NCBI RefSeq assembly: GCF_002934265.1
Contig: NZ_PTIX01000012.1
Location: 1-64,000, forward strand
Reading direction: 5' to 3'
DNA from: Actinokineospora auranticolor
Lineage (GTDB): Bacteria; Actinomycetota; Actinomycetes; Mycobacteriales; Pseudonocardiaceae
Length of the DNA stretch: 64,000 bases
Made by a program: the position numbers and the translations under genes. Shown here piece by piece: positions 7,693 through 22,961 of the stretch. Below the pieces are notes generated by a model. It did no database searches. It was not told where the DNA came from and saw only the letters and a list, made by a program, of their open reading frames with translations. Numbering within the stretch: the stretch's first letter is position 1; each line of letters starts with the position of its first letter.

Positions 7693-7706
7693 GGGACACA
7701 GCCTGC

Positions 7707-7771: not shown

Positions 7772-7816
7772 ACTGATGGTTGTCAGGGCTAGCTTTCGAC
7801 TCGAAAGGGTGCCGTC

Positions 7817-8935: not shown

Positions 8936-9110
8936 CTCTTCTCCTTGGTGTCATCCGATTCTCCCACGGTTGGAGTCGGGCGCGTATCTAAGCTGGATGA
9001 GTGTGCGCCTGTGGACCCTCTACTGCGACCGCTCGATGAGCTATGTAGCGATGCGAGCCGGTATTGAGTAGAGAATACCTTCCGTTCGTGCGTCCTCGGC
9101 TCAAGTCTGT

Positions 9111-9680
9111 CTATCGACCCTTATCTTTGAAGGGTGTCGGGTTGATATCTGGACCCTTGACATTCGGATCGTAGTTCGAAACTTCTTTCTCGAATAGGGT
9201 TGCGCTTGGGGTCCAATGGTCGCTCACAGTTCTCACGTACTTGAACCCGAGCGATTCGTAGTACTCATGCAGAGACTTGTTGGTGTTCCACGCATCCAAG
9301 ACCAGGTACTGGCGCCCGTGTGAACGAGCCAGATCTTCCGCAAAGGCGATCATCTCCTTGCCGATTCCTTGGCCAGCGTGGCTGCGAGGAACCATCATCC
9401 GATGGACAATATAGGACTTGCTTAGTTCGTCACCGGTCCACAAGCCTTCGTCGGGCACCAGGTCAATTGCGATGGTTCCAACCGGCTCACCGGAATTGTC
9501 AAGGGCGAGCCAGGTCTCTCCTGCCTCAATGGACCTGCTGATGCGACGTTGGAACTCATCGCGAGAGAGGCCAGTACTGTCCCACTGGTCGCTGCCCTTG
9601 CTGTGAATCCAGTCGGTCACCTCCCAGCGCCAGTCGGTGATGAGGTCCATGTCGGCGACTGTGGCACGGCGGAACTGCAT
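9111..9680 (-). CDS. GNAT-family N-acetyltransferase
   Basis: This 189-aa protein has a GNAT fold. The acetyl-CoA binding motif A reads 'VPRSHAGQGIGKEMIAFAEDLA' (R/Q-x-x-G-x-G/A type), followed by 'LVLDAWNTNKSLHEYYESLGFKYV', the usual C-terminal motif B. ATG 9680 begins 1 nt after the stop of the upstream GntR gene (TAG-G-ATG), so translation is coupled. An ATG further up would start inside the regulator's reading frame. The substrate could be a small amine, an antibiotic or a protein terminus and is not predictable. Confidence 0.85.
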   Translation of the reverse strand: MQFRRATVADMDLITDWRWEVTDWIHSKGSDQWDSTGLSRDEFQRRISRSIEAGETWLALDNSGEPVGTIAIDLVPDEGLWTGDELSKSYIVHRMMVPRSHAGQGIGKEMIAFAEDLARSHGRQYLVLDAWNTNKSLHEYYESLGFKYVRTVSDHWTPSATLFEKEVSNYDPNVKGPDINPTPFKDKGR

Positions 9681-9681
9681 C

Positions 9682-10461
9682 CTAGGCCCCTTCACTGTTG
9701 TCAGTGAGATGGGTGATGATGTTTCTGTCGGCCGGAAGGATTTCGACGGTAAGTCGAGTGACTACATCCTTGGCGGTCGCGAGTCGACGGAACAGCAAGA
9801 CGGAAACACCTGGTGCTAGGTCGAACCGTTCGCGTTCATCGGCTCTGGCTGGGCGGCTGCTGATTTCGTGGACGATTCGGTCCTCGACGTAGCCGCGTGC
9901 GGCCATTCGTCGCACCGTTCCTTCGGCGATATCGGTCGGCGTGTCGAGCCCGCATGCCTTGGCTATCTCGTACGGGTAGAACGTGGTCTGCACGGACCAG
10001 GGGATGTCGTTGACGTAACGGAACATCTCGCGCACGACGACGAGGTCATTGACGGCGACGTTCAACCTGTCCGCGATGACGACAGTGGCGGGTTCTATGC
10101 GGAATTTGAAGTCTTGACTGGGCTCCCGGCCGGACTCCCGAACCACAGAAGACCAGGTGTCCGTCACTGTGCCCGTACGGTCCCGTCGTCGCGGGTGTTC
10201 GGCGTCAACGTTGTACTCAAGCAGGGGGAGCCGTCGGATGTAGGTTCCCGCCCGGCCGCGTGTCTCGATCAACCCTTCGGCGGCGAGTCCTGCCAGGGCA
10301 GCCCGGATCGTTCCTCGCCCCGACTGGTAGTGGTCTGCGAGCTCGGGCTCGGTGGGGAGCTTGGCTCCATCCACCAGTTGCACGCCAAGGACCGTCGCCT
10401 CAGCCTGGATGGCTTCCCGCAGTTCGTCGGCAAGCTCTTGGTACCTAGGTCCTGGCCCCAT
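9682..10461 (-). CDS. KorSA-like GntR/UTRA repressor of the AICE
   Basis: A 259-aa GntR regulator: winged helix at about residues 5-80 ('LPTEPELADHYQSGRGTIRAAL'), then a UTRA domain. It is divergent from the element's main operon, the position of KorSA in pSAM2-type elements, where it represses the activator pra and so limits replication and transfer. ATG 10461 is preferred because 'agggtgagg' lies 6 nt upstream; a GTG 12 bp further upstream is the alternative. Two palindromes in the divergent region are likely its operators. The GNAT gene is coupled to it. Confidence 0.85.
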   Translation of the reverse strand: MGPGPRYQELADELREAIQAEATVLGVQLVDGAKLPTEPELADHYQSGRGTIRAALAGLAAEGLIETRGRAGTYIRRLPLLEYNVDAEHPRRRDRTGTVTDTWSSVVRESGREPSQDFKFRIEPATVVIADRLNVAVNDLVVVREMFRYVNDIPWSVQTTFYPYEIAKACGLDTPTDIAEGTVRRMAARGYVEDRIVHEISSRPARADERERFDLAPGVSVLLFRRLATAKDVVTRLTVEILPADRNIITHLTDNSEGA

Positions 10462-10480
10462 GGTCCGCCTCACCCTTTCG

Positions 10481-10571
10481 ATTCGTTCGAACGAATCCTA
10501 CGCAACCTATTGACACCGGTCCAGCCAGCGCCCTAACGTTCGTATCGTTCGAACGCAACAACGATACGAAC
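10481..10571. promoter_or_regulatory. Divergent control region with two palindromic operators and a promoter
   Basis: There is a perfect 16-bp palindrome ATTCGTTCGAACGAAT at 10481-10496. A longer symmetrical site at 10538-10571 has 12-bp arms GTTCGTATCGTT / AACGATACGAAC and an inner CGTTCGAACG. Both share CGTTCGAACG. A plus-strand promoter TTGACA (10510-10515) and TAACGT (10534-10539), 18 bp apart, places the start point inside the second palindrome. Repressor binding there would block the long plus-strand operon, and the first palindrome sits in the GntR gene's own leader. Confidence 0.7.
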
Positions 10572-10591
10572 CGAAAGGACGATGATCGCAG

Positions 10592-10813
10592 ATGGCAAGT
10601 CGACGGTGGTTCGACCCGGAGGGCCGGAGTCGAGCGGACATCGCCGCACTGAGGGTGCCCGAGGCGGAAGGCGGACCGGAGCCCACGACCGCGTTGTTGG
10701 ACGGGTCCGCCCGGGCACGGCGGGAGCGCCGCGAGATGAACCGGGCGTTGGCAGCCGCGGTTCGTGTGTTGCCGGTGGCGGACCAGGAGGTTGTGTGGGG
10801 TGAGGCGGCGTGA
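10592..10813 (+). CDS. Small AICE operon protein, unknown function
   Basis: This 73-aa basic/acidic protein ('MASRRWFDPEGRSRADIAAL', ending 'VADQEVVWGEAA') is the first gene behind the divergent promoter. An 'aaagga' site lies 12 nt before ATG 10592; a competing ATG at 10582 in another frame gives a Gly/Arg-rich, less protein-like product. Its stop overlaps the next gene's GTG by 4 bp. No family recognised. Confidence 0.55.
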   Translation: MASRRWFDPEGRSRADIAALRVPEAEGGPEPTTALLDGSARARRERREMNRALAAAVRVLPVADQEVVWGEAA

Positions 10814-10992
10814 AGCGTGGCGGTTCTGTGCGCTTCGCTGTTGCCGAGTTGGGTCCTGCCCTGCGGCTGGTGTACCGGCCTCGCTGGGTGTCCGATCACC
10901 ACCCGTGGGTGCCGGTCAACGGTGCCCCGTGGCGCTACAGCCACCGGGAGGTCACCGAGACCGCTGTCGATGGTTCGGTGACGGTCTCGTGA
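10810..10992 (+). CDS. Small AICE operon protein, unknown function
   Basis: A 60-aa protein rich in aromatic residues ('LRLVYRPRWVSDHHPWVPVNG'). The GTG start overlaps the previous stop (GTGA), and its own stop overlaps the next GTG in the same way. The chain of overlaps supports it as a real gene. No family recognised. Confidence 0.55.
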   Translation: MKRGGSVRFAVAELGPALRLVYRPRWVSDHHPWVPVNGAPWRYSHREVTETAVDGSVTVS

Positions 10993-11380
10993 GCGCCACG
11001 GTGGTCCGGTTGCCGTGGAGCGGGCAGCACTGGCCGGGTCGTATGGCCGATGGTGTCCCGACCTTCCGCTATCGCGACGTCCCCCCGGGGCTGGTGACCC
11101 GCCGCTGGCTGCGTGCCCGCGGCTTGTGCCCGGGTGGTGCGGACTGGGTGGCGCAGATCCGGTGGCGGCGGGGGCGTCGGTGGGCGGCGCTGTTCCGGCT
11201 GGATCTGGCCCGACCGTCTCCGGGCGCCACGACAGCCCAGTTGGTGTCGCTGCGCAAGGCCCACCGAGTGCTGCGCACCTGTACCGCCTGCGGACTGCTT
11301 GCCCCTACCGCCTACCCGTCTCCAACGGTCGCCGCTGCTGGCCGTGCGAGCGGGCCACGAACTCCGAGTCCACGAACTGA
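10989..11380 (+). CDS. RRQRL-type zinc-binding protein with a likely -1 frameshift
   Basis: From GTG 10989 the frame reads as the small zinc-binding proteins common in AICEs: 'VTRRWLRARGLCPGGADWVAQ', 'IRWRRGRRWAALFRLDLARP', then a first knuckle 'RTCTAC'. The expected second knuckle, 'GRRCWPCERA', lies in the -1 frame, entered at the C-run 11302-11305 and ending at TGA 11378-11380. In the zero frame the protein loses this CxxC and runs into the next gene. Either a base has been lost in the homopolymer, the assembly has an error, or ribosomes slip there. The pre-shift domain and the following gene's good ribosome site support a gene end at 11380. Confidence 0.6.
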
Positions 11381-11399
11381 TCACAGGAAGAGCATCGAC

Positions 11400-11588
11400 A
11401 TGGCCAAGAACAACAGGAACAGCAACTACGACGAGTACGACCCGGAGCAGGACCCGATGTTCGCCGGGATGATCCGGGGCGCCCGCGCCTGCTATCAGCG
11501 GGAGATGGCGGACCTGCACGAGCGTTGGGGCAGGTCGGTGGAGTCCGGCGAGTCGGTGACCGACGACTCGTCCGGGACGGGCAGGTGA
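11400..11588 (+). CDS. Small acidic AICE operon protein
   Basis: A 62-aa hydrophilic protein (Asn/Asp-rich start 'MAKNNRNSNYDEYDPEQDP', then a helical 'ACYQREMADLHERWG'). 'caggaag' lies about 9 nt before ATG 11400. Without the frameshift in the preceding gene the zero frame would fuse into it, but its own initiation signal argues for a separate protein. Function unknown. Confidence 0.6.
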   Translation: MAKNNRNSNYDEYDPEQDPMFAGMIRGARACYQREMADLHERWGRSVESGESVTDDSSGTGR

Positions 11589-11627
11589 ACACCGCATCGG
11601 CCTTCAGGGCCGTGTACGGGATGTGCC

Positions 11628-11687
11628 CCCGGTCTGGCGCTCGAACCGCCAAGAACGCTCGCCAGACCGGGTCGCTCAACCACCACC
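11628..11687 (+). promoter_or_regulatory. Conserved hairpin leader, copy A
   Basis: A 12-bp perfect stem (CCCGGTCTGGCG, 11628-11639; CGCCAGACCGGG, 11660-11671) encloses a 20-nt loop containing 'CCGCCAAGAACGC'. Five nt after the stem comes CAACCACCACC (11677-11687), then the ATG of the RapZ-like gene 26 nt later. The same arrangement recurs at 13341-13400 with different paired bases but the same loop and tail sequence. This suggests a selected cis-acting RNA structure upstream of a coding region. Confidence 0.55.
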
Positions 11688-11713
11688 AGGCAACCGGTAA
11701 TGGAGAGGGACAG

Positions 11714-12139
11714 ATGGTATCCGGAAGTTCGGGCGCGGCCGTGGGTCGTGGGCGCTCGATCAGTGTGGTGTCGTTCGGGTTCCTGCACGGTCCGGCCCCG
11801 GAGGCGGACGTGGTGGTGGACCTGCGCCGCTACCTGCGGGACCCGGCGCGGATGAGCGCGGACCTGCTCGACCTCGACGGGCGGGACCTGGCGGTGATGC
11901 AGGTGGTGCTCGACACCCCGGGCGCGCTGGCCACGGTGCACGAGGTGGTCGCGCTGGTGGAGGCCGCGCCCCGGATGACGTCGGTGGCGTTGGGCTGTGC
12001 GGGTGGTCGTCACCGGTCGGTGGCGCTGGCGCTGTGCGTCGGGTGGGGCCTGCGCGGCAAGGGGCTCGACGTCGACGTCACCCACCGGCACGTCCACCTG
12101 CCCCGTGTCCTCACCAACGGCGAAGGGCAGAGCCGGTGA
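11714..12139 (+). CDS. RapZ C-terminal-domain-like protein
   Basis: This 141-aa protein corresponds to the C-terminal domain of RapZ (YvcJ): 'VVSFGFLHGPAPEADVVVDLRRYLRDP' and 'ALGCAGGRHRSVALA', the signature GC-x-GG-x-HRSV segment, without the N-terminal P-loop ATPase. In RapZ this domain binds RNA and a small phosphosugar; here it may sense or bind RNA. ATG 11714 follows 'ggagaggga'. Its stop overlaps the next start. A conserved hairpin leader precedes it. Confidence 0.75.
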   Translation: MVSGSSGAAVGRGRSISVVSFGFLHGPAPEADVVVDLRRYLRDPARMSADLLDLDGRDLAVMQVVLDTPGALATVHEVVALVEAAPRMTSVALGCAGGRHRSVALALCVGWGLRGKGLDVDVTHRHVHLPRVLTNGEGQSR

Positions 12140-12537
12140 ACACCGTGGTCATGGCATCACAGATCGAGCTGCCCGACGGGGGTTGCTACGGGGTGCGGAT
12201 GCGGGTGCCGGTGGGGGAGCGGGTGTACGCGTTCGACCGGCCGCTGATCCCGGTGTCGCAGGTGGCGGCGGTGGCTCCGGACATCACCGTCACCGACCGG
12301 GCGATCGAGATCCGCACCGACCGGTGGGGCGTGATCGAGGTCCGCGACCCCCACATCGGCGAGCAGGCCCGGGTGCTGCCGGTGGTCTGCGGTGACCCCG
12401 ACCTGGCCGCGCGGGTCGCGTCGGCGTTCACCGCCGACTCCGCCATCGGCTGGGACAGCGACGCGGTGGAGCGCGAGGCGTGGTGCCTGTGCTGGATGTC
12501 CACCTACCACCACGACCGCAACGGAGGCGCCGCGTGA
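12136..12537 (+). CDS. AICE operon protein, unknown function
   Basis: A 133-aa protein with alternating beta-rich segments ('YGVRMRVPVGERVYAFDRPLI', 'AIEIRTDRWGVIEVRDPHI') and a Trp/Cys-rich tail ('EREAWCLCWMSTYHHD'). GTG 12136 overlaps the preceding stop, and the stop overlaps the GTG of a tiny downstream gene. No family recognised. Confidence 0.65.
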   Translation: MNTVVMASQIELPDGGCYGVRMRVPVGERVYAFDRPLIPVSQVAAVAPDITVTDRAIEIRTDRWGVIEVRDPHIGEQARVLPVVCGDPDLAARVASAFTADSAIGWDSDAVEREAWCLCWMSTYHHDRNGGAA

Positions 12538-12653
12538 GGACCCGAACCCACCCCGCCCCGGCCGTGGAGATCGAGCAGGACGAGGCGCTGTGCGAGTGCC
12601 GCTGCGGCCAACTGCCCGGCACCCACACCGCCGGTCAGTGCGGCAGCGCCTGA
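12534..12653 (+). CDS. 39-aa cysteine-rich mini-protein
   Basis: GTG 12534 overlaps the previous stop (GTGA), like the other junctions of this operon, and encodes 39 residues. The core is C-x-C-x-C ('CECRC') followed by 'GTHTAGQCGSA', giving four Cys and one His in the last 20 residues, a possible minimal metal knuckle. It is short, so support rests on the coupling pattern and codon use. Confidence 0.4.
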   Translation: MRTRTHPAPAVEIEQDEALCECRCGQLPGTHTAGQCGSA

Positions 12654-12705
12654 CACCCATCCCCTCCTGCCCCGATAGCACCCCAGTTCAGCGAAAGGAC
12701 GTGCC

Positions 12706-12888
12706 ATGAGCACCCGCGACAACAACGACAAGACGACCCGGCCCGGTGTGAGCGTGGAGGACCTCGACCGACTGATGCAACGCGCGGCCCGCAACGGCGG
12801 CGCGATCGAGCGCGACGGCGTCAGCATCCGCGGCGCCCACCCCGGCCACACCGCGACCGTCGTCATCGACGGCGACTTCCACGCCTGA
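12706..12888 (+). CDS. Small AICE operon protein, unknown function
   Basis: A 60-aa protein with an amphipathic helix ('SVEDLDRLMQRAARNGG') and a beta-like C-terminus ('TATVVIDGDFHA'). ATG 12706 has 'gaaaggacg' upstream. It lies directly before the NUDIX gene (14-bp gap). No family recognised. Confidence 0.6.
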   Translation: MSTRDNNDKTTRPGVSVEDLDRLMQRAARNGGAIERDGVSIRGAHPGHTATVVIDGDFHA

Positions 12889-12902
12889 CAAGGAGATCGA
12901 CC

Positions 12903-13334
12903 ATGGACACGACCAAGCTGATCCTCACCGCCGACGCGGTGGTGTTCACTCGCGCCGACGGGCGCTGGCACGTGCTGCTCATCGAACGCAAGTGGGACCC
13001 CTTCGAGGGCCGGTGGGCGTTGCCCGGTGGCCACATCGACCCCGGCGAGTCCCCGGACGCGGCCGCGGTGCGGGAGCTGGGGGAGGAAACCGGGCTGCTC
13101 ATGCCGACCACCGCCGTCAAGGTCGGTGTCTACGACGCACCGGGCCGTGACCCGCGCGGCCGTTACGCCACCCACGCCTACGCCGCCGTTGTCGACGGTA
13201 TGCCCACCCCGGTCGCCGCCGACGACGCCCGCGCCGCCCGATGGGTGCCGCTGACCGAGGTCACCGCCACCGGGCTGGCGTTCGACCACGGCCGCATCGT
13301 CACCGACGCCATGGCGCAGCTCGCCATCTCCTGA
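12903..13334 (+). CDS. NUDIX hydrolase, Pra-like
   Basis: This 143-aa NUDIX protein has a complete Nudix box, G-x5-E-x7-REL-x-EE-x-GL (about residues 41-63). ATG 12903 follows 'aaggag'. In pSAM2 the NUDIX-related Pra protein activates replication and excision and is repressed by KorSA; the same pairing (KorSA-like GntR plus NUDIX under its operon) is present here. Whether it hydrolyses a nucleotide or acts purely as an activator cannot be told from sequence. Confidence 0.85.
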   Translation: MDTTKLILTADAVVFTRADGRWHVLLIERKWDPFEGRWALPGGHIDPGESPDAAAVRELGEETGLLMPTTAVKVGVYDAPGRDPRGRYATHAYAAVVDGMPTPVAADDARAARWVPLTEVTATGLAFDHGRIVTDAMAQLAIS

Positions 13335-13340
13335 CTCTGC

Positions 13341-13400
13341 CCCGGCCCGGTGGTCCTTCCGGCAAGAACGCCCACCGGGCCGGGCCTTCCAACCACCACC
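13341..13400 (+). promoter_or_regulatory. Conserved hairpin leader, copy B
   Basis: A 13-bp stem (CCCGGCCCGGTGG, 13341-13353; CCACCGGGCCGGG, 13372-13384) encloses an 18-nt loop containing 'CCGGCAAGAACGC'. Five nt later comes CAACCACCACC (13390-13400), and the next ATG is 23 nt downstream. Loop, tail and spacings match copy A at 11628-11687 while several stem pairs differ in both arms. It lies immediately after the NUDIX stop, so it could also act as a terminator or attenuator. Confidence 0.55.
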
Positions 13401-13423
13401 TGACTTCTGTGGAGGCGTTACCG

Positions 13424-13792
13424 ATGGTAGCCACGCCCGACAGGACCGCTGAGGTCCTGGCGCGAGTTGACACGATTCTGACCACTCTGATCACCCTGTC
13501 TGCCGAGCACGGCCTGTTCGTTGACCACGTGGCCGTCAGCGGCGACGCGCACGTGTTCGTGGACACCTTCGACCGGTTCACCGCCTGGGCGCGGCTGCTG
13601 GGTGCCACCAGCCTCGACGCGTGGACCTCCCGCGACCGGGTCACCATCCTGGTCAAGGGGAGGGTCGACGGGATCGACATCACCGTCTTCGGCGAGTTGC
13701 CGCACCTGCCGGGCTTGGGGGAGAAGACGGAGCGGTTCCCGCTCGCCGTCCTGGACACCGTCACCGGTGCCGAGATGGCGGTGGCGGCATGA
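13424..13792 (+). CDS. AICE operon protein, unknown function
   Basis: A 122-aa protein with an N-terminal helix ('AEVLARVDTILTTLITLSAEHG') and a mixed beta region ('DHVAVSGDAHVFVDTFDRFTAWARLLG'). ATG 13424 has 'ggagg' 9 nt upstream and follows hairpin leader copy B. Its stop overlaps the start of the next gene (ATGA). No family recognised. Confidence 0.65.
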   Translation: MVATPDRTAEVLARVDTILTTLITLSAEHGLFVDHVAVSGDAHVFVDTFDRFTAWARLLGATSLDAWTSRDRVTILVKGRVDGIDITVFGELPHLPGLGEKTERFPLAVLDTVTGAEMAVAA

Positions 13793-14700
13793 CCAGCGCC
13801 TACCCCATCACTGTCGATGCGCTGGTCGAGCGGGTCAAGGCTCGTGCGGTCGAGTTGGGTCAGGTGCCCACGCGTAACCGGATCAAGACGGAGTTCAGGG
13901 TCGGTGCTCCGAAGGCGAACGCGGTGCTGGCCGAGTTGGAGGCCACCGGGTTCGACCCCGCCGTCCGGCGCCTGCACACGGTCTCGCCCACCGACCCCGC
14001 CCCGGAGGACGAGCCAGGCCCAGAGAACGAGCCCGCCGAGCCCGGCCGGGGTCAAGGTGAGCCGGTCACGGCCGACCCGGACGAGCCGGTCACGTCCCCG
14101 GTGACGGAAGCGCCCTGGGCGCCTCTGGTCGCCGACGACACGGGAGCCGCGCGGGTGGCCTGCGCCGAGGTCACCGCACCCGTAGACCCGGGTCCCACGG
14201 CCGCCCCGCAACCGGGTCCAGTACCGGCGGAGGCCGGGCAGAAGCCGTGGTGGAGTCGGGGACGGTCGCACTCGTTGCCGTTGCTGGTGATCGCGGCGGG
14301 GGCGTTCGTGGCGATCTGGGGCGGGTGGGTCGGACTCGGCGAGAAGGCCGGGTTCGGGCTCGTCCGGCTGCTGCCGGGCATCGCCGACGAGTTCGTCATT
14401 AACTCGGCGATCACGTTGCCGCTGGGCATGGAGGCGTACGCGGCGTTCGCCCTGCGGGTCTGGTTGACCAGTTCCCGCGCCGCGAAAGGGCGTGGGTTCG
14501 CCAAGTGGTCGGCTATCGCCGCGCTGATCCTCGGGGGACTCGGACAGGTTGCGTACCACCTGATGGAGGCTGCCGGGATCACCGTCGCTCCGTGGTGGAT
14601 CACCACGTTCGTGTCGTGTCTGCCGGTGGCGGTACTCGGATGCGCGGCGGCTCTGCTGCACCTGTGGCGTCAGGACATCGACGGGTCGGACCGGCGATGA
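13789..14700 (+). CDS. Spread-type membrane protein with N-terminal DNA-binding-like domain
   Basis: This 303-aa protein has an N-terminal winged-helix-like segment ('TRNRIKTEFRVGAPKANAVLAELEATG', about residues 23-49), a long Pro/Glu-rich linker (about 65-155), then four membrane helices with the last two near 'WSAIAALILGGLGQVAYHLM' and 'FVSCLPVAVLGCAAALLHLW'. The layout fits the DUF2637/Spd-type proteins of actinomycete plasmids, which help intramycelial spread of transferred DNA. It is coupled by ATGA to both neighbours. Confidence 0.7.
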   Translation: MTSAYPITVDALVERVKARAVELGQVPTRNRIKTEFRVGAPKANAVLAELEATGFDPAVRRLHTVSPTDPAPEDEPGPENEPAEPGRGQGEPVTADPDEPVTSPVTEAPWAPLVADDTGAARVACAEVTAPVDPGPTAAPQPGPVPAEAGQKPWWSRGRSHSLPLLVIAAGAFVAIWGGWVGLGEKAGFGLVRLLPGIADEFVINSAITLPLGMEAYAAFALRVWLTSSRAAKGRGFAKWSAIAALILGGLGQVAYHLMEAAGITVAPWWITTFVSCLPVAVLGCAAALLHLWRQDIDGSDRR

Positions 14701-14957
14701 ACGGGCAGGTCAACAACCCCGTGGACCCGGGTTCGGGGTGGCGGTCGGTGGTGCGTGCGGGCTGGCGCCGGGTGGTGTCGGTGGTGGGGTTCGTCGCGGT
14801 GCCGTTGGACGAGTTGGTGACGGCGTGGCTGGGTGTGGCACCGGTGGTGCCGCGTGTGCGGTGGTGGTGCCAACAGGTGGCCTGCGAGTGGCGTGCGTGG
14901 CGGTGTGGCGTGATCGACGCCGAAGTGGTTGACGGGGAGAAAGGGGTGTGGCGATGA
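14697..14957 (+). CDS. Small AICE operon protein, possible spread protein
   Basis: An 86-aa, Trp- and Val-rich protein with one moderately hydrophobic segment ('VVSVVGFVAVPLDELVTAWLGV'). ATG 14697 overlaps the previous stop and the stop overlaps the next ATG. It is probably membrane-associated. No family recognised. Confidence 0.55.
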   Translation: MNGQVNNPVDPGSGWRSVVRAGWRRVVSVVGFVAVPLDELVTAWLGVAPVVPRVRWWCQQVACEWRAWRCGVIDAEVVDGEKGVWR

Positions 14958-15328
14958 GCAGCAGGGATCGCAGGATCGGTGAGCTGGCCCGGGTGGAGTT
15001 CACCGGGTCGATGGGTGAGGCGATCGGGCACTACTCGGCGGCGTTGCGCACCATCTCGCGTCGCTGGGACACCGAGTTGGGGCTGGCGTCGGCGGACGTG
15101 CGGGCGGCTCTGGTGTCGATCCGCGGGTCGTGGCTGGGGCTGGACAAGGCGGCCCGGCGACTGCGGGCACGGCGGGTCGCGCGGCGGTTGCGGCGGGCTC
15201 AGTCGCTGGCATCGGCGCTGGCCGACCGCGCCGACCGGTTCCGGGTCCAGTACGCCAGGCAGTTCCTGGTGATGAGCGCCGACGAGGCCAAGGACCGCAC
15301 CCGCAAGCTGGACAGGAGCGGCGAATGA
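14954..15328 (+). CDS. AICE helical protein, first of a tandem paralogous pair
   Basis: A 124-aa, Arg-rich, almost wholly helical protein ('RRIGELARVEFTGSMGEAIG', 'KAARRLRARRVARRLRRAQS'). It aligns along its length with the next gene, sharing 'E-F-T-G', the 'L..LD..A/RLRARRVAR.LR.A..L' block and the C-terminal 'F..Q..R.F'. The pair arose by duplication. It lies just ahead of traB with ATGA overlaps, so a role in transfer is likely but undefined. Confidence 0.65.
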   Translation: MSSRDRRIGELARVEFTGSMGEAIGHYSAALRTISRRWDTELGLASADVRAALVSIRGSWLGLDKAARRLRARRVARRLRRAQSLASALADRADRFRVQYARQFLVMSADEAKDRTRKLDRSGE

Positions 15329-15702
15329 AGACCGCAGGGGAACGGATCGAGGAGATCGCCGACTGCGAGTTCACCGGGGACCGGGTGGCGGAGCGCATCG
15401 CCCGCTACGCCCAACTCACCCAGCGACTCGCCCACGACCTCGCCCGGGAACTGGACATCGCCGAGGAAGCGGCGGAGGCGGCGTTGCGGCGGCTCAAGGG
15501 CCACCCGCTGCTGGTGGGGATCGACGTGCGGTTGCGGGCGCGGAAGGTGGCGCGGGAGCTGCGTGAGGCCCGCGATCTGTGCAAGGGCATCTCCGCTGAG
15601 GCGGTCGCGTTCAACCTCCAGTTCCGCCGCGAGTTCGCCGAGGCGCTGGACCCGACCCGGGCCGCGAAGACCAAGCACCACCGAGGGGAGGTCGACCTGT
15701 GA
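15325..15702 (+). CDS. AICE helical protein, second of a tandem paralogous pair
   Basis: A 125-aa, charged helical protein ('GERIEEIADCEFTGDRVAERI', 'VRLRARKVARELREARDL'). It is a paralogue of the preceding gene, with more Glu and fewer Arg, so the two may form a hetero-oligomer. ATG 15325 overlaps the preceding stop, and its stop overlaps the traB start. Function unknown; context suggests conjugal transfer. Confidence 0.65.
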   Translation: MKTAGERIEEIADCEFTGDRVAERIARYAQLTQRLAHDLARELDIAEEAAEAALRRLKGHPLLVGIDVRLRARKVARELREARDLCKGISAEAVAFNLQFRREFAEALDPTRAAKTKHHRGEVDL

Positions 15703-17735
15703 TGCGCCGCAACACCAACGCCGTGACCATGGTCGCCGCCGACGAGGCGACCACACCACGCCTGTGGGCCAAGGTCGGCAGCCAGGCCGGGGTGTTGGCG
15801 CCGCCGTGGTTGTTGCTGGCCGGTACCGCCGGTGCCGGGGCGCTCTCGCACGCGGTGTGGGGCGATCCGGGCGAGGTCACCTGGGCCGCGGTCGCCGCGA
15901 CCCTGGGCACCACCGGCCTGTCCAGCCTGACATGGGCGATCACCCACGCGCGGCGGCTGCTGGGGCGGGTGCACGCCTCCGCCACGGTCGCGGCCACCGG
16001 GGCGTGGCTGACCACCGCCACGGTCACCGGCCTGGACTCCGAGGTGGTCACCGGCGCGCTGTGGTGGGGCGGGGCCGGTCTGGCGCTGTCGTGGAACCTG
16101 CGGACGGTCATCCGCCGCCTGGACCCCGACCAGCAGGGCGGAGCGGACGCGCTGGCCACCCTGTTCGACAAGGCCAAGGACCAAGCCGGACTCAAGGGCG
16201 CCCGCGCCCGGGCCACCCAGGTCACCGACCGCAAGATCAAGGGCGTGGTCGCGCTGGCGCCCGGTGAGGCGACCGTGCACGACGCACAGCGCTCGATCGG
16301 CAAACTGGAGTCCGGGATGCAGGTCCCGCCCGGCACGCTGGCGCTGGCCGCCAACCCCGACCGCGCCGACCTGGCCGAGATCACCGTCTCCGACCCGCGT
16401 GTGCTGCGCACCCCGATCCCGTGGCCCGGACCGTCCCGGCCTGGCGCGTCCGTCGCCGAACCGTTGCGGGTCGGGGGGTGGCAGGACGGCGACGACGGCG
16501 AGTTCATCCTGCCCGGCAGGCACTTGCAGGTCATGGGCATGAGCGGATCGGGCAAGAGCTTCGGCTCGGCCTGGAACACCCTGGCTGAGCTCATGACCCG
16601 CCGCGACGTGCAGATCATCGCCATCGACACCAGCAAGGACGAGCAGACTCTCGGTCCGCTCAAGCCCGGCCTGGCGGCCTTGGTGACCGACCAGAACAGC
16701 GCGGTCGAGATGCTGCGCAGGCTGCACCGCCAGATCCCCGAGCGCACCAAGACGCTGGGCCGCAACGGCTACAGCAAGTGGTCCGAGGGCTGTGGCATGG
16801 ACTTCGTGGTGCTGTGGATCGAGGAAGCCTCCAAGTTCCTCGCCGCGCTGTCGGGAAAGGACGAAGAGCGCTTCGAGGAGATCGTCAAGGAAGCCCGCTC
16901 CGCCGGAGTGGCCATCGTGCTGTCGCTGCAACGCTCCGACTACACCCAGATGCCCACCCTGGTGCGCGGCCAACTCTCCAAGTGGTGCTTCGGACTGGGC
17001 TCCTCCGACGACGCCAAGTGGGGATTGTCCACCCGCCAACAGAAGGTCGACACCGTCGCCCCCGAGGAGTGGGAGGCCAACTACCCCGGCATGTCCTACC
17101 TCGACGCACAAGGCGTCTCTGAGAAGCACGCCATGATGCCGCTGCGCTGCTACAGCTGGGGCGAGACCACCTACAGGGACGCCATGGCCGCCCACCTTGC
17201 CGAGTACCACCAGCCCCACGCCCCCGACCCGCTCACCGCCCGACTGCTGGGCCCAACCGCCACCGACACCCGAGACACCGACCTCACCGACACCGACGAC
17301 GAGGACACCGAGGAGTGGGACGTGGCCGCGGACGAGTTGGACGAGGCGGCCCGGCGTGACCCCGAGCTGGCCGACCCCGACACCGCGGTCACCGCCGCCG
17401 CGCGGCCCGACACCCCGATCCAGCACCCCACCGCCGAAGAGGCCCAGGCGGTGGAAAGCGACCCGCCCGCCCGGCGGGCCACCCCGGCGCAATCCCGCGC
17501 CGCGCTGCACGACTGGCTCACCGAACGCGTCGCGGCCGGACACGACACCTTCACCGCCTCCGACCCCAGCCTCGCCGCGCTGCGCCACCATCTCGGCATG
17601 GGACGCTCCTGGACCTACAAGGTCCTCGGGGAACTCCAGGAAGCCGGACGGCTGACCGTCCACAACGGCGTCTACACCATCGAACCCGACACCGACCACA
17701 CCCCCGACGTCGACACCGGGCAACTCGCCGCCTGA
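15699..17735 (+). CDS. traB: TraB/FtsK-type DNA translocase for conjugation
   Basis: This 678-aa protein has four N-terminal membrane helices (about residues 33-133). An FtsK/SpoIIIE motor domain follows, with Walker A 'GMSGSGKS' (about 279-286) and Walker B 'DFVVLWIEE' (about 367-375). After an acidic linker comes a C-terminal winged helix (about 605-655, 'LAALRHHLGMGRSWTYKVLGEL'). Single TraB proteins of this design move double-stranded DNA between mycelia after binding short clt repeats. GTG 15699 has 'gaggggagg' at ideal distance. A repeat-rich region directly follows the gene and may be clt. Confidence 0.9.
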   Translation: MMRRNTNAVTMVAADEATTPRLWAKVGSQAGVLAPPWLLLAGTAGAGALSHAVWGDPGEVTWAAVAATLGTTGLSSLTWAITHARRLLGRVHASATVAATGAWLTTATVTGLDSEVVTGALWWGGAGLALSWNLRTVIRRLDPDQQGGADALATLFDKAKDQAGLKGARARATQVTDRKIKGVVALAPGEATVHDAQRSIGKLESGMQVPPGTLALAANPDRADLAEITVSDPRVLRTPIPWPGPSRPGASVAEPLRVGGWQDGDDGEFILPGRHLQVMGMSGSGKSFGSAWNTLAELMTRRDVQIIAIDTSKDEQTLGPLKPGLAALVTDQNSAVEMLRRLHRQIPERTKTLGRNGYSKWSEGCGMDFVVLWIEEASKFLAALSGKDEERFEEIVKEARSAGVAIVLSLQRSDYTQMPTLVRGQLSKWCFGLGSSDDAKWGLSTRQQKVDTVAPEEWEANYPGMSYLDAQGVSEKHAMMPLRCYSWGETTYRDAMAAHLAEYHQPHAPDPLTARLLGPTATDTRDTDLTDTDDEDTEEWDVAADELDEAARRDPELADPDTAVTAAARPDTPIQHPTAEEAQAVESDPPARRATPAQSRAALHDWLTERVAAGHDTFTASDPSLAALRHHLGMGRSWTYKVLGELQEAGRLTVHNGVYTIEPDTDHTPDVDTGQLAA

Positions 17736-17785
17736 CCCCCGCGCGCGGCTGCGCGTAGGACACCCGGCCGCCGTGAAAATGATCT

Positions 17786-17931
17786 TGTCACGCGGGTGTC
17801 ACACCCACCCGCGACCGCTGTCACGGCACCTGTCACAGGCGGTGTCACGGCACCTGTCACGACCCGTGACACCGCCTGCGACCTCCCACTCTCCACCCCA
17901 ACCCCGCCCCGCGCGCCACCCCGACTGTCAC
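17786..17931. repeat. TGTCAC cluster 2, 12-bp phased (candidate clt or ori)
   Basis: TGTCAC begins at 17786, 17797, 17819, 17831, 17843 and 17855 with the complement at 17866 and another copy at 17926. Four copies are exactly 12 bp apart (17819-17855), some within a longer 'TGTCACGGCACC' unit. The cluster fills the 280-bp non-coding gap between traB and the HELGH gene; nothing else was seen there. Direct repeats behind traB are typical of clt; iterons before a replication block are typical of an origin. Confidence 0.6.
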
Positions 17932-18015
17932 GCGCGCCGACCGGCACCACCACCACACATCACCCCCAAGGCCACGCCCCCGGTTCGACGCGCCCAAAAG
18001 ACCCGAAGGAGTCCC

Positions 18016-18456
18016 ATGACCACCCAGCCCCCCGACCTCGACCCCCACCGACTCCAGGTCGCCATCCACGAACTGGGCCACTACATCGCCTGGCGCGATC
18101 TGCCCGGCGCCGGCATCCGCGCCGTGCGCGTCACCGGCCACGGACGCCACACCGAGGGCATCACCACCGTCGACTGGCCCACCGACGACAACGGCGCCCT
18201 CGACCACGGCTACCTCGTCGGTCTGCTCGCCGGACGCGAAGCCGACCTGTTCCACAAGCCGCACTCCACCATCCCCTACGACCCCAGAGGCTGCGCGTTC
18301 GACCTCGGCCTGTTCCGCCGCGTGCGCCGCCGTCACCAACCCTCCCGGCAATGGTCGGAACACGACCTACGCGCCAGCGCTCGCGCACTGATCCGCGCCC
18401 ACTGGGCCGAAATCCAACGACTCGCACCACGCCTGGCCCGCCGGGGACGGCTGTAA
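18016..18456 (+). CDS. Small HExxH-containing protein (peptidase-M41/M50-like)
   Basis: A 146-aa protein with 'VAIHELGHYIAWRDLPG' (about residues 16-32), which carries the HExxH zinc-protease motif in the helix context of FtsH-type M41 peptidases. It continues with 'GYLVGLLAGREADLF', resembling the third-ligand helix of that family. No AAA domain or transmembrane segment is present. ATG 18016 follows 'gaaggag'. It starts the replication block. It could be a small soluble protease or an inactive relative. Confidence 0.65.
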   Translation: MTTQPPDLDPHRLQVAIHELGHYIAWRDLPGAGIRAVRVTGHGRHTEGITTVDWPTDDNGALDHGYLVGLLAGREADLFHKPHSTIPYDPRGCAFDLGLFRRVRRRHQPSRQWSEHDLRASARALIRAHWAEIQRLAPRLARRGRL

Positions 18457-18522
18457 CCCAGGCCCCGCCCCGGAGAGCCGACCGCCGCCCCGTCCGTCCG
18501 ACTCCGTCTCGAAGGACTCACC

Positions 18523-19467
18523 ATGACTTCCTTGCTGTCTGCCGCGCTCGCCGCCGTCGAACGCGGATGGACCGTGTTCCCGTTGCAGCGCAACGGAAAA
18601 TTGCCCGCCTTCCACGGGCGCGACCGGTGCCCTCGGACGGGGCCGTGCGTGTCCGGGCACTTGGAGCCGGAGCGGCGGGCGATGGGCGACCCGGAGAAGG
18701 TCCGCTGGTACTGGGGCAGCGAGCGGGGCCGTGACTGCAACGTCGGGATCGCCACCGGCCCATCCGGGCTGTGCGTGGTGGACCTGGACATCGCCAAGGC
18801 CGACGACCCGCCGCGCCCGGCCGCGTGGGACCTCCCGGGTGTGGGGGACGGGGCCGACGTGTTCACCGTGGTCTGCCAGAGCGCGGGCCAGGAGGTCCCC
18901 TGGGACACCTTCACCGCGGCCACTCCCTCCGGCGGCACCCACCTGTACTTCACGGCCCCGGAAGGCGTGGAGTTGCGCTGCACCAACGGGGATCGCGGTC
19001 GTGGGCTGGGCTGGAAGGTCGATACCCGCGCGTGGGGCGGGCACGTCGCGGCCCCCGGGTCCACAGTCGACGGCCGCAACTACACCATCACCTACGACCG
19101 CGAGCCCGCGCCGCTGCCCGACTGGTTGGTGGCCCGGCTGCTCCCGCCCCCGGCCCCGATCGCTCCCCCGTTGCCCACGCGCGTGGGCGAGTCCCGGCGG
19201 GACAAGTACGTCCACGCGGCCGTGGTCGCCGAAACCGCCAAGGTCCGTGACGCCACCCACGACCGCAACGCCACCCTCTACGGCGCCGCTATCGCCCTGG
19301 GGCGCCTGGTCGCCGGGGGCGCGCTCACCGAGGACGACGCCCGCACCGCGCTCATGTCCGGCGCCGCCCGCCACATCGGCGTCCGCCGGTTCAGCGAACA
19401 CGAGGCCCACAAGACCATCACCTCTGGCATGCTCGCCGGAGCCAAGCGACCCCGTCAGGTGGCCTGA
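18523..19467 (+). CDS. Bifunctional DNA primase/polymerase (prim-pol)
   Basis: This 314-aa archaeo-eukaryotic-type prim-pol has the N-terminal 'AALAAVERGWTVFPLQRNGK', the metal-binding 'CVVDLDIAK' (about residues 84-92) and 'TPSGGTHLYFTAPEG' plus 'GGHVAAPGSTVDGR', all canonical of the family. A helical C-terminal part (about 215-314) likely belongs to the PriCT-like region. It is an initiator/primase for element replication with the RepA-like ATPase downstream. ATG 18523 follows 'gaaggac'. Confidence 0.88.
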   Translation: MTSLLSAALAAVERGWTVFPLQRNGKLPAFHGRDRCPRTGPCVSGHLEPERRAMGDPEKVRWYWGSERGRDCNVGIATGPSGLCVVDLDIAKADDPPRPAAWDLPGVGDGADVFTVVCQSAGQEVPWDTFTAATPSGGTHLYFTAPEGVELRCTNGDRGRGLGWKVDTRAWGGHVAAPGSTVDGRNYTITYDREPAPLPDWLVARLLPPPAPIAPPLPTRVGESRRDKYVHAAVVAETAKVRDATHDRNATLYGAAIALGRLVAGGALTEDDARTALMSGAARHIGVRRFSEHEAHKTITSGMLAGAKRPRQVA

Positions 19468-19468
19468 C

Positions 19469-20317
19469 ATGGGCACCATCACCCGCTTGCCGACCGTGCT
19501 GCCGAAGTTCCTGCTGGGTCTGCACCAGCCCAGCGATCTGCCGAGGGCGGGGGTTCCGGCGTTCGTGTCGGATACGCGGCTGCGGGCGCGCAAGACGCTG
19601 CCTCGGGCAGCTGCGCCGGTCGCCTACGACTCCGGCGGGTTCACCCAGTTGCAGAAACACGGCGCCTGGACCATCGGCCCCCGCGAGTACATCGCCCGAC
19701 TGCGCCGCTACCGCGACGAGATCGGCGGCATGCTCTGGGCCGCACAGCAGGACTGGATGTGCGAACCGCTGATCATCAGCGGCGGACGCGCCGGACCGAA
19801 CGTGTTCGTTGGCACCGGGTTGTCGGTGCCCATCCACCAACGCCGCACCGTGGACAACCTCATCGAGATGCGCGCCCTGGCCCCCGACCTATGGATCGTG
19901 CCGTCCTTGCAAGGCTGGGAAGTCGACGACTATCTACGCTGCCGCGACCTCTACGACCGGGCCGGGATCGACCTCACCGCCGAACCACTGGTCGGACTCG
20001 GCAGCGTCTGCCGACGACAAGGCACCAAGGAAGCCGGGCAGATCCTTCGCGTCTTGCACACAGAAGGCATCACCCGCATCCACGGGTTCGGCTTCAAAAC
20101 CCTCGGACTCATCGAACACGGCCACCTGCTCACCTCATCGGACTCCCTGGCCTGGTCCTACGACGCCCGCCAACTCCGACGCCTTTCCGGGCTGCCCGAC
20201 TGCCCCGGCACCCACAAGAACTGCGCCAACTGCCTGCCCTACGCCCTGCACTGGCGTGCCCGCGTCCTCGCAGCTGCCACAACGAACACCACAACCACCT
20301 GGGAGGCAGTCGCGTGA
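19469..20317 (+). CDS. TGT/DpdA-like transglycosylase (DUF7221 type)
   Basis: This 282-aa TIM-barrel protein is related to queuine tRNA-ribosyltransferase and the DNA-modifying DpdA enzymes. 'AYDSGGFTQL' (about residues 52-61) matches the TGT DSGGFQ motif with the catalytic Asp, 'VPSLQGW' (about 144) replaces the substrate-binding QGG loop, 'GLGSVCRRQGTKEAG' (about 176) parallels the GGLAVGE loop, and 'CPGTHKNCANC' (about 245-255) plus a His resembles the zinc site. It sits between the primase and RepA genes, coupled to the latter. It may insert a 7-deazaguanine into element DNA or tRNA. No deazapurine synthesis genes are in the window. Confidence 0.72.
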   Translation: MGTITRLPTVLPKFLLGLHQPSDLPRAGVPAFVSDTRLRARKTLPRAAAPVAYDSGGFTQLQKHGAWTIGPREYIARLRRYRDEIGGMLWAAQQDWMCEPLIISGGRAGPNVFVGTGLSVPIHQRRTVDNLIEMRALAPDLWIVPSLQGWEVDDYLRCRDLYDRAGIDLTAEPLVGLGSVCRRQGTKEAGQILRVLHTEGITRIHGFGFKTLGLIEHGHLLTSSDSLAWSYDARQLRRLSGLPDCPGTHKNCANCLPYALHWRARVLAAATTNTTTTWEAVA

Positions 20318-21354
20318 CCCCGCACCTGAGGCCCGTGGTCGACGCCAAACCGGTCCGTCGGCAGTCGCGGTGGACCGACACCGAACTCATGGCCACCCAG
20401 TTCCCCGAACCCCGCTGGGCCGTCCCCGGCCTGCTCTGCGAAGGGCTCAACATCCTCGCCGGAGCCCCAAAACTCGGAAAATCCTGGCTGTCGCTGGGAC
20501 TCGGCGCGTCCATCTCCACCGGAGAACCCGCCCTCGGTGTCGTCGACGTCGACAAAGGCCCCGTCCTCTACTGCGCCCTGGAGGACACCGGACGCCGCCT
20601 GCAACGCCGCCGTCGACACATGCTCAAAGCCGGTGGCAGGCCCTCACCCCTGCTGACCCTGGAAACCTCCTGCCCGCCCATGACCGCCGGAGGTGACGCG
20701 GTCATCGTGGACTGGTTGGAAGCCAACCCGGCCGCACGGCTGGTCATCATCGACACCTTCGAGAAGATGCGCGGCACCGACACCCCCGGCATGTCCGCCT
20801 ACGCCGCTGACTACCTCGCCGCCGGGCGGTTCAAGCGCATCGCCGACCACTACGAAGTCCCCATCCTGCTCATCCACCACGTCCGCAAACAGGGCCATGA
20901 AGACTGGTCAGCGCTCGTCTCCGGCACCAACGGCCTCACCGGCGCTGCCGACTCCATCCTCGTCCTCGAACGCGGGCGCGGGGAGGACACCGGGGTCCTG
21001 CACGTCACCGGCCGCGACGTCGAGGAAGCCGACTACGCCATGCGCTTCGACTCCGACACCGGCGCCTGGACCAAACTCGATGGCCCCGCCGAGGACTACC
21101 TCATGGCCGACACCCGCGTCCGCCTCATCCACCACATCCGCGCCTACCCCGGCAGCAAGCCCGCCGACATCGCCGAAGCCCTCGACATCAAGCCCGCCAC
21201 CGTCCGCAAAACCCTCGGACGCATGGTCACCGACGGACAACTCCGCAACGACCGCGGCGCCTACCACCCACCCAGTGACACCACCCCCGCCCCTGACCCG
21301 TCACACCTGTCACTCTGTCACTCCACCTCGGTTGACCAGCGGGAACGGCTGTGA
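20314..21354 (+). CDS. RepA-like AAA/RecA-fold ATPase of the replication block
   Basis: This 346-aa protein has Walker A 'GAPKLGKSW' (about residues 49-57) and Walker B 'LVIIDTFEKM' (about 143-152), the KaiC/RepA hexameric helicase type. A C-terminal winged helix (about 268-312, 'KPADIAEALDIKPATVRKTL') follows. GTG 20314 overlaps the previous stop. It probably acts as replicative helicase/initiator with the prim-pol. Its 3' end overlaps the third TGTCAC cluster. Confidence 0.82.
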   Translation: MTPHLRPVVDAKPVRRQSRWTDTELMATQFPEPRWAVPGLLCEGLNILAGAPKLGKSWLSLGLGASISTGEPALGVVDVDKGPVLYCALEDTGRRLQRRRRHMLKAGGRPSPLLTLETSCPPMTAGGDAVIVDWLEANPAARLVIIDTFEKMRGTDTPGMSAYAADYLAAGRFKRIADHYEVPILLIHHVRKQGHEDWSALVSGTNGLTGAADSILVLERGRGEDTGVLHVTGRDVEEADYAMRFDSDTGAWTKLDGPAEDYLMADTRVRLIHHIRAYPGSKPADIAEALDIKPATVRKTLGRMVTDGQLRNDRGAYHPPSDTTPAPDPSHLSLCHSTSVDQRERL

Positions 21355-21386
21355 CACCGCCTGTGACACCCCGACGACCCTGTCAC
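21275..21386. repeat. TGTCAC/GTGACA cluster 3
   Basis: The hexamer or its complement occurs at 21275, 21308, 21316, 21351, 21363 and 21381, with a CGTCAC variant at 21299. The GTGACACC pair at 21351/21363 is again 12 bp apart. It covers the 3' end of the RepA-like gene and the gap before xis. The location upstream of xis/int suggests control of excision or a replication iteron set. Confidence 0.5.
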
Positions 21387-21410
21387 TCCGCACAAACCGG
21401 GGGAAACGCC

Positions 21411-21641
21411 ATGGCCGACCGTCACGTCCCCACCATTGTCCCGCCTCGACACCTCTACAAGGTCGAGGAAGCCGCACAACTGCTCTCCATCAGCCGATCC
21501 GCTACCTACGAACTCATCCGCGCCGGAGAACTCAACACCGTCACCATCGGCCGCTCCCGCCGCGTCCCCGCAACTGCAATCAGCGACTACATCGGCCGAC
21601 TCCTCTCCGGGGCGGAGGTGCGTTATGACCAAGCGTCGTAG
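21411..21641 (+). CDS. xis: Excisionase (Xis)
   Basis: A 76-aa protein with the excisionase-type winged helix 'LYKVEEAAQLLSISRSATYE' followed by 'LIRAGELNTVTIGRSRRVP'. ATG 21411 is preceded by 'gggggaaacgcc'. The 3' end overlaps the integrase start, the usual xis-int arrangement, and the factor should direct excision from tRNA-Thr. Confidence 0.9.
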   Translation: MADRHVPTIVPPRHLYKVEEAAQLLSISRSATYELIRAGELNTVTIGRSRRVPATAISDYIGRLLSGAEVRYDQAS

Positions 21642-22818
21642 TCGAGGTGACGGCAGTCTCCGGTGGGACAAGACTCGCGAACGCTACATCGCTGAAATAA
21701 CCGTGGGCTACACCCCGGCCGGAAAGCGCATCACCCGCAAGGCCAGCGCCAGGACGAGGAAGGCCGCCAACGACAAACTCAAGGAGATGGTGCGCAATCT
21801 CGACGACGGCCTTGCGGCAAAGGCATCGGCGACTTACACGGTCGGCGACGCCGTGAACGATTGGATGGCGAATTACGAGTTGATCGGTCGAGACCCAAAT
21901 ACGGTCAGGACCGTACGGTCGCTCGTCATCCACCATATCCTGCCTGATCTAGGAGCCCGAAAGCTGGTGGACCTTTCGGCCGAGGACGTGGACCGGTGGC
22001 TTGCCGCAAAGGCGCAGACGATGGTCACATCAACCCTCCGAAATCTCCGGTCGATCCTCCGCAGGGCTATCACGCGCGCACTGGCGCGTGACCGAGTAAA
22101 GCGGAATGTCGTACTCCTCTGCGACTGCCCAACCGGGAAGGGGAAGGGGAGACCGTCCAAGTCCCTCACGCTCGCCCAAGCGGAAGCCGTGATGAAGGCA
22201 GCGGAAAAATCACCGATGCGTGGCTACGTCGTTGTGGCCTTGCTGACAGGGGCACGAACCGAGGAATTGCGCGCACTCACCTGGAATGACGTGGACACGG
22301 TTGGGGCGCTTGATGCATCACCGGCCGTGCCTCCCAATATTCAGGTGCTGCGCTCGGTGCGGGCGAGCGGTGACACAAAGACCAAGAAGTCGCGCCGTGC
22401 GCTTGCACTGCCCCAGCGAGCCGTGGACGCGCTCAAAGCGCACAGAAGGCTTCAGGAAATTGCGCGCGAAGCCGCTGGCAAGTTGTGGCGTGACCACGGG
22501 TTGGTGTTCCCCACGATGTTCGGCACTCCCCAGGACGTCAACAACGTGAGACGCGACTTCCGGCGCGTGATCAAAGCGGCGGGATTGCCAGGAGTCCAGT
22601 GGACTCCCCGCGAGTTGCGGCACAGCTTCGTCTCGCTGCTCTCCGACAGTGGCGTCCCCCTCGAACAGATCTCCCGCCTTGTGGGGCACTCCAGCACGGC
22701 CGTCACCGAGCTGGTCTACCGGAAGCAGATCCGGCCCGTCATCGACGACGGTGCGGTGGCCATGGACCGCCTGTTCCCAGGCGCCCAAGACGACCGGGGG
22801 GAGACCGGGGCGGCTTAG
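21625..22818 (+). CDS. int: Tyrosine site-specific integrase
   Basis: This 397-aa integrase has an N-terminal arm-binding domain ('RRSRGDGSLRWDKTRERYIAE'), a SAM-like core-binding domain (about residues 70-150), and a catalytic domain with Arg in 'GARTEELRAL' (about 210-219), H-x-x-R in 'RELRHSF' (about 329), His in 'VGHSS' and the nucleophilic Tyr in 'VYRKQ' (about 366). ATG 21625 overlaps xis. The gene ends 69 bp from attR. It catalyses recombination between the element and the tRNA-Thr 3' end. Confidence 0.95.
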   Translation: MTKRRSRGDGSLRWDKTRERYIAEITVGYTPAGKRITRKASARTRKAANDKLKEMVRNLDDGLAAKASATYTVGDAVNDWMANYELIGRDPNTVRTVRSLVIHHILPDLGARKLVDLSAEDVDRWLAAKAQTMVTSTLRNLRSILRRAITRALARDRVKRNVVLLCDCPTGKGKGRPSKSLTLAQAEAVMKAAEKSPMRGYVVVALLTGARTEELRALTWNDVDTVGALDASPAVPPNIQVLRSVRASGDTKTKKSRRALALPQRAVDALKAHRRLQEIAREAAGKLWRDHGLVFPTMFGTPQDVNNVRRDFRRVIKAAGLPGVQWTPRELRHSFVSLLSDSGVPLEQISRLVGHSSTAVTELVYRKQIRPVIDDGAVAMDRLFPGAQDDRGETGAA

Positions 22819-22837
22819 TCACTCACTTAGTCACTCA
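22814..22837. repeat. Tandem 12-bp repeat at the int/attR junction
   Basis: CTTAGTCACTCA is present twice head to tail (22814-22825, 22826-22837), the first copy covering the int stop codon. A related 'agtcactcgc' occurs near attL at about 7267. This makes the motif a candidate integrase arm site. Confidence 0.45.
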
Positions 22838-22846
22838 GAGACGACT

Positions 22847-22880
22847 CAGGCCCCGTCCACACCACTGTGGACGGGGCCTG
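22847..22880. terminator. Element-borne hairpin between int and attR
   Basis: A perfect 14-bp stem (CAGGCCCCGTCCAC and complement) with a 6-nt loop lies 28 bp after int and 8 bp from the 3' end of the minus-strand tRNA-Thr. It can terminate both int and the tRNA transcript, whose own terminator was displaced to 7081-7118 by the insertion. Confidence 0.75.
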
Positions 22881-22886
22881 ACCTGC

Positions 22887-22929
22887 GAGCCGCCTAAGGG
22901 AATCGAACCCTTGACCTGTTCATTACGAG
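22887..22929. repeat. attR: 43-bp repeat overlapping the tRNA-Thr 3' end
   Basis: Identical to 7128-7170. The repeat covers the tRNA 3' end through most of the anticodon arm, so integration restores a complete tRNA-Thr gene on this side. Confidence 0.9.
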
Positions 22930-22961
22930 TGAACCGCTCTGGCCGACTGAGCTAAGGCGGC
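22888..22961 (-). tRNA. tRNA-Thr (anticodon CGT)
   Basis: This 74-nt cloverleaf reads on the minus strand: acceptor GCCGCCT pairs with AGGCGGC, D-stem GCTC/GAGC, anticodon stem GTTCA/TGAAC with loop CTCGTAA (anticodon CGT), T-stem AAGGG/CCCTT with loop TTCGATT, and discriminator T. CCA is not encoded. The gene is the AICE attachment site and remains intact. Confidence 0.95.

Follow-up and report, generated by a model that had tools for sequence, protein, structure and literature searches.

The question raised by this locus is why a gene for a predicted base-exchanging enzyme lies inside the replication operon of a conjugative element. The window, the 64,000 nucleotides of Actinokineospora auranticolor contig NZ_PTIX01000012.1 that were analyzed, contains an intact dpdA-like open reading frame (ORF) at positions 19469–20317 of the forward strand. 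The ORF has no internal stop, and its translation is 282 residues long. The gene belongs to a 15.8-kb actinomycete integrative conjugative element (AICE) at positions 7128–22929. The reading that we favor, at barely better than even confidence, is that this small DpdA-family transglycosylase places host-made 7-deazaguanine into the double-stranded DNA (dsDNA) of the AICE as an anti-restriction mark.

The protein was assigned to its family by a match to PF23859 (DpdA; E 5e-75, 252.6 bits against a Pfam cut-off of 27) and by a match to PHROG 1279, "queuine tRNA-ribosyltransferase" (E 7.2e-78). The Pfam scan of the 282-residue protein gave no match to the tRNA-guanine transglycosylase (TGT) family PF01702. 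No match was obtained with PADLOC, and a weak NCBIfam match was judged spurious. The PDB sequence search (phmmer, then a profile) found no relative, its top matches being unrelated dehydrogenases and a transporter. The AlphaFold model is confident (predicted local distance difference test score, pLDDT, 87.5) and has a TGT-like TIM-barrel fold. The first match of the model in a Foldseek search against the PDB is 7ui4, the solved DNA preQ0 insertase DpdA. The initial annotation, made from the sequence, had called the product a TGT/DpdA-like transglycosylase, and the family match and predicted structure both support this name. The structural comparison that it had suggested gave a fold matching both enzyme classes. 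The likeness of the model to 7ui4 and to the tRNA-guanine transglycosylases is about equal, and thus the predicted fold alone cannot settle whether DNA or tRNA is the target.

The DSGGF motif singled out in that annotation occupies residues 54–58. In the alignment of 118 distinct relatives, each row that has a residue at the position carries D54, H205, and D225, while D95 is kept in 117 and Q148 in 116. By motif analogy with TGT residues, D54 and D225 are taken to be the catalytic pair, with D225 as the nucleophile, and D95 and Q148 presumably bind the base. Loss of both catalytic Asp residues, named earlier as an observation that would count against the assignment, is not what the relatives display. 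The Cys-rich, zinc-like site was borne out in part. A stretch H249-x2-C252-x2-C255 is present and differs from the CxCxxC found at residue 302 of E. coli Tgt. H249 and C255 are near-constant in the relatives. C252 is Glu in 37 of the 44 transporter-linked relatives, and the zinc site is for this reason not certain. The ratio of nonsynonymous to synonymous substitution rates (dN/dS) is 0.09–0.33 in 11 close pairs of relatives, mostly Streptomyces copies, which indicates purifying selection; the window gene gave 0.38 and 0.55 against two distant relatives, values obtained at high divergence. H205 lies in an HGFG motif that pairs, in a weak hhalign alignment, with the HGFG beginning at residue 196 of the phage 9g protein, and the His is kept in 118/118 relatives. 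H196 of 9g is described as conserved in DpdA and not in DpdA2 in PMC6884629.

The position of the gene within the element was established from the reading frames. The stop codon of the bifunctional primase/polymerase (Prim-Pol) gene at 19465–19467 is separated from the dpdA ATG at 19469 by 1 bp, and the dpdA stop at 20315–20317 overlaps the GTG start of the Rep-like gene at 20314 by 4 bp. The gene thus lies between primase and RepA-like genes and is coupled to the latter, as had been claimed. The gene order is Prim-Pol, dpdA, Rep-like ATPase, excisionase, tyrosine integrase, and tRNA-Thr(CGT). The features of the element are as follows.

7128–7170, no strand: attachment (att) repeat, left copy, 43-bp exact direct repeat
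12903–13334, forward strand: NUDIX hydrolase of the element (PF00293, E 4.4e-27)
14948–15328, forward strand: weak TraA-like protein (NF041213, E 0.0011, under the cut-off)
15699–17735, forward strand, start at 15699 or 15702: TraB-like FtsK-type DNA translocase (NF041214, E 7.7e-130, 434 bits, equivalog cut-off of 800 not reached)
18523–19467, forward strand: Prim-Pol, which opens the replication block (PF09250, E 4.6e-38)
19469–20317, forward strand: dpdA-like gene, 282 residues, predicted base-exchange enzyme of TGT/DpdA fold
20314–21354, forward strand: Rep-like AAA_25 ATPase with a C-terminal winged helix (PF13481, E 1.5e-32, tested from 20317)
21351–21641, forward strand: excisionase (Xis; HTH_17/TIGR01764)
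21625–22818, forward strand: tyrosine integrase (Int; PF00589, E 2.8e-18; start chosen by eye, ORF open from 21436)
22887–22961, reverse strand: tRNA-Thr (CGT), the integration site (ARAGORN)
22887–22929, no strand: att repeat, right copy, inside the 3' part of tRNA-Thr, 43-bp exact direct repeat

The att repeats at tRNA-Thr, the Int/Xis pair, the replication module, and the FtsK/TraB-type protein (under its equivalog cut-off) are the grounds on which the element is assigned as an AICE. The conjugative nature proposed earlier is thus upheld by the TraB-like translocase and by the direct repeat at both bounds. The left end of the element (7128–10000) is low in G+C (0.51–0.65 versus about 0.7 elsewhere), and its ORFs resemble, by reading alone, a membrane protein, an acetyltransferase, and a GntR-type regulator.

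AICEs transfer unprocessed dsDNA, and this transfer requires replication, according to PMC3218068. A mark set at the time of replication could therefore protect the DNA in a restricting recipient. In the proposed mechanism DpdA would swap guanine for a 7-deazaguanine (preQ0 or a precursor) in the DNA of the element. Co-translation with the primase and Rep would cause the enzyme to act while the excised AICE replicates. The base would be provided by the FolE-QueD-QueE and QueC homologues of the host, and the marked dsDNA would then be moved by TraB to a recipient, whose restriction enzymes the modified DNA would resist. The dsDNA moved by AICEs can be cut by such enzymes, and a replication-coupled mark would meet an obvious need.

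The source of the base was sought in the host genome. A QueC homologue was found on contig C15 and a cluster of QueD, QueE, and FolE homologues on contig C29. The QueC, QueD, and QueE homologues are divergent and fall under the NCBIfam equivalog cut-offs, and FolE is over one; from these homologues a working 7-deazaguanine pathway is likely. The earlier proposal to search the host for que genes returned queC, queD, and queE homologues, none of which reaches equivalog rank. The statement that no preQ0 synthesis genes are nearby holds for queC and queD, of which the window contains no homologue, the matches of the genome being on other contigs. The homologues are a possible base supply and make the suggestion that the host provides the base plausible for this host. 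No PF01702 match was found in the host genome (14/14 control genomes positive), and no PF02592 (YhhQ) match (9/14 positive). A second host QueC match (contig C21, loci L003 and L005) was rejected, as it lies inside an asparagine-synthase-like gene.

The cluster on C29 has features of its own. The QueD, QueE, and FolE homologues (L007:6948-9831, from C29:51000-66000) stand beside a 270-residue transglycosylase-like protein that is 24–27% identical to the "DNA guanine transglycosylase" of a Flavobacterium phage. A copy that is 69–78% identical to this protein occurs on four Streptomyces plasmids, on one of them directly by folE. The cluster is possibly a second, mobile 7-deazaguanine system, and the 270-residue protein may be its usual client. 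A single-sequence fold model of this second transglycosylase-like protein (L007:9019-9828) was discarded at pLDDT 45. The cluster continues (L007:9828-12507) with weak nucleoside-phosphorylase-like, thymidylate-kinase-like, and DUF2797 proteins, which might reflect nucleotide-level use of deazaguanine.

Relatives of the window protein were collected from phages, plasmids, and genomes. With tblastn, relatives were detected in 399 phage records (391 named Mycobacterium) from a total of 50,697, and the 72,556 plasmid records gave 50. PF23859 matches occur in 99 of the 390 genomes of Pseudonocardiaceae, the family of the host. Of 372 Streptomyces genomes, 40 have a relative of the window protein; 3 of these, with fragments only, were removed. 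Without the six weakest rows, the Pseudonocardiaceae places amount to 89 full-length (4 with an in-frame stop) and 45 partial; copy numbers are lower bounds, since the best few candidates per genome were scored. The fetched flanks of 42 named loci, an unpicked set, contain a Prim-Pol relative in 22, an integrase in 22, and Xis in 20. The neighbors of AICE-type dpdA were clustered to find a partner that is always present; this gave Int, Prim-Pol, Xis, and other AICE genes, and the transporter cluster contained a single locus of the set (L010). The set includes 13 Pseudonocardiaceae loci that were picked after their contexts had been seen, so that its counts lean toward AICE genes. Relatives of dpdA are frequent in actinobacterial AICEs. 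The enzyme family is already known, and a literature search limited to open papers returned no report of DpdA in AICEs or of this setting inside an AICE replication operon.

The genomes were then compared for their base supply. QueC was counted at 80 bits or more, a cut-off set by the analyst since in most genomes other ATP-pyrophosphatases match PF06508 weakly. In Pseudonocardiaceae QueC was counted in 33 of 75 dpdA genomes versus 35 of the 315 others (P 5e-5 by permutation within genera). Nine of 12 AICE-type carriers have QueC (within-genus P 0.002 versus dpdA-free genomes; P 0.022 versus all 378 others, 59 with QueC); this set was chosen by context after viewing and includes the genome of the window. 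The corresponding Streptomyces counts are 8 of 37 carriers versus 38 of 335 others (P 0.11). In each of the genomes G343, G085, G185, G186, G066, G160, and G383 one contig carries both a dpdA place and a strong QueC place, separated by 43–67 kb, a spacing that would fit opposite ends of a single large element or prophage.

The best evidence that the dpdA family handles a queuosine-type 7-deazaguanine is provided by linkage to a transporter in a sister lineage. A gene for a PF02592 (Vut_1, YhhQ-type) protein is located directly upstream on the same strand in 53 of the 89 full-length Pseudonocardiaceae dpdA places, with 21–149 bp between the profile matches, and 61 of 75 Vut_1 places adjoin a full or partial dpdA. 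By genome, Vut_1 is found in 55 of 75 with dpdA versus 11 of 315 others. For five sampled transporters the NCBIfam queuosine precursor transporter was the best or second-best match, always under the equivalog cut-off. A tree of the relatives was built by a quick search, with support from the Shimodaira–Hasegawa-like approximate likelihood ratio test (SH-aLRT). In this tree a group of 43 (SH-aLRT 96) includes 42 of the 44 rows linked to a transporter, and the window protein falls in a set of 18 mostly AICE rows (SH-aLRT 97); the transporter label requires 4 changes versus 36 in shuffles. The remaining two transporter-linked rows are L080, from a Nocardia plasmid, inside the set of the window protein, and L010, from Streptomyces sp. 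BR123, which is basal in the larger AICE branch. The pair in L080 (5402–7275; plasmid NZ_CP109568) adjoins a TnsA/TniB/TniQ-type transposon gene set. In G056, G064, G070, G071, G078, G187, and G188, Vut_1 places away from dpdA have a QueC place at a distance of about 2.1 kb, which suggests preQ0 synthesis-transport clusters. The linkage makes it testable whether DpdA-only elements depend on salvaged or host-made base.

Two sets of observations weigh against a mark made from host base. The named loci come from 36 genomes, of which 9 have QueC, 7 have Vut_1 over its cut-off, and 10 have at least one of the two; the other 26 have neither over the cut-off, and thus no known base source was found for most Streptomyces-type carriers. 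In addition, phage Orion encodes DpdA only, and PMC6884629 reports that its DNA contained no 7-deazaguanine when the host was M. smegmatis, which lacks the pathway. The Orion protein is presumed to be kin to the window protein from the way that paper describes the group, and the carriers without a known base source agree with the unmodified Orion DNA. Together with the weak QueC association in Streptomyces, these points speak for an active base exchanger that would be idle in most hosts, where 7-deazaguanine is absent, and would be retained through occasional passage of the element into hosts able to synthesize or import the base. This explanation is judged unlikely: purifying selection and invariant catalytic residues are seen in what are mostly Streptomyces copies, and the host of the window holds homologues of the pathway.

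It is more improbable that the enzyme is a horizontally acquired stand-in for a missing TGT and places 7-deazaguanine into host tRNA anticodons. The lack of a PF01702 match in the host and the equal likeness of the model to TGT folds are in accord with this role. The gene sits within a replication operon, however, its Pfam family is DpdA, a His occupies the position of 9g H196, and the protein lacks CxCxxC and is shorter than Tgt. Least probable of all is modification of specific guanines, for example at the origin or att, that would control replication or excision and not restriction. Coupling to Prim-Pol and Rep would fit such a local mark, as would the finding of Prim-Pol within 200 bp upstream of dpdA in 8 of 82 other loci, with the exact order Prim-Pol-dpdA-Rep in 3 (L019, Streptomyces; L120; L127). 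The position is variable, however, as Prim-Pol is mostly downstream of dpdA in the Streptomyces loci where it was detected, and phages and large plasmids also carry related genes. Marking of AICE DNA against restriction is kept as the preferred reading. A wider proposal is held more tentatively, at a little less than even: actinobacterial AICEs would hypermodify their own transfer dsDNA with a replication-operon DpdA and host base, while sister lineages (plasmids and other loci) would carry a portable two-gene cassette of preQ0 transporter and DpdA for hosts without the pathway.

The closest known proteins are the mycobacteriophage "DpdA-only" enzymes of Chris, Roliet, and ZoeJ (PHROG 1279/PF23859). 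They are of the same sequence family, the matches listed being 46–51% identical across about 90% of the protein length, and share the DSGGF, QDWMC, HGFG, DS..W, and CxxC motifs. The dpdA genes of Chris and ZoeJ are phage-borne and located by the integrase, whereas the window gene is in an AICE replication operon. The DpdA proteins of phages 9g, Saguaro, and Bipper are of the same predicted enzyme class and very low sequence similarity; DSG.F (9g and Saguaro), HG.G, and DS..W are common with the window protein. Their genes have preQ0 genes beside them, and the AICE gene has none. According to PMC6884629, 9g DpdA puts preQ0 into DNA in E. coli, and phage 7-deazaguanine bases protect against restriction. 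E. coli Tgt (375 residues, with CxCxxC) differs from the 282-residue window protein, which is without this motif; 18 residues around DSGGF were aligned at a probability of 1.5%. In the bacterial dpd islands (DpdA–DpdK) dpdA is paired with dpdB, often with dpdC and a restriction operon, according to PMC11888242. The window gene is instead flanked by Prim-Pol and Rep, and the scan of ten element proteins named no DpdB or other dpd-island partner, no search aimed at DpdB having been made. The operon of SLP1-type AICEs consists of Prim-Pol, a replication gene, and then xis and int, according to PMC3218068; there Prim-Pol adjoins the replication gene, whereas here dpdA stands between the two. Phages and dpd islands are known to modify DNA with 7-deazaguanine, and a DpdA that acts from an AICE replication operon would extend this modification to conjugation.
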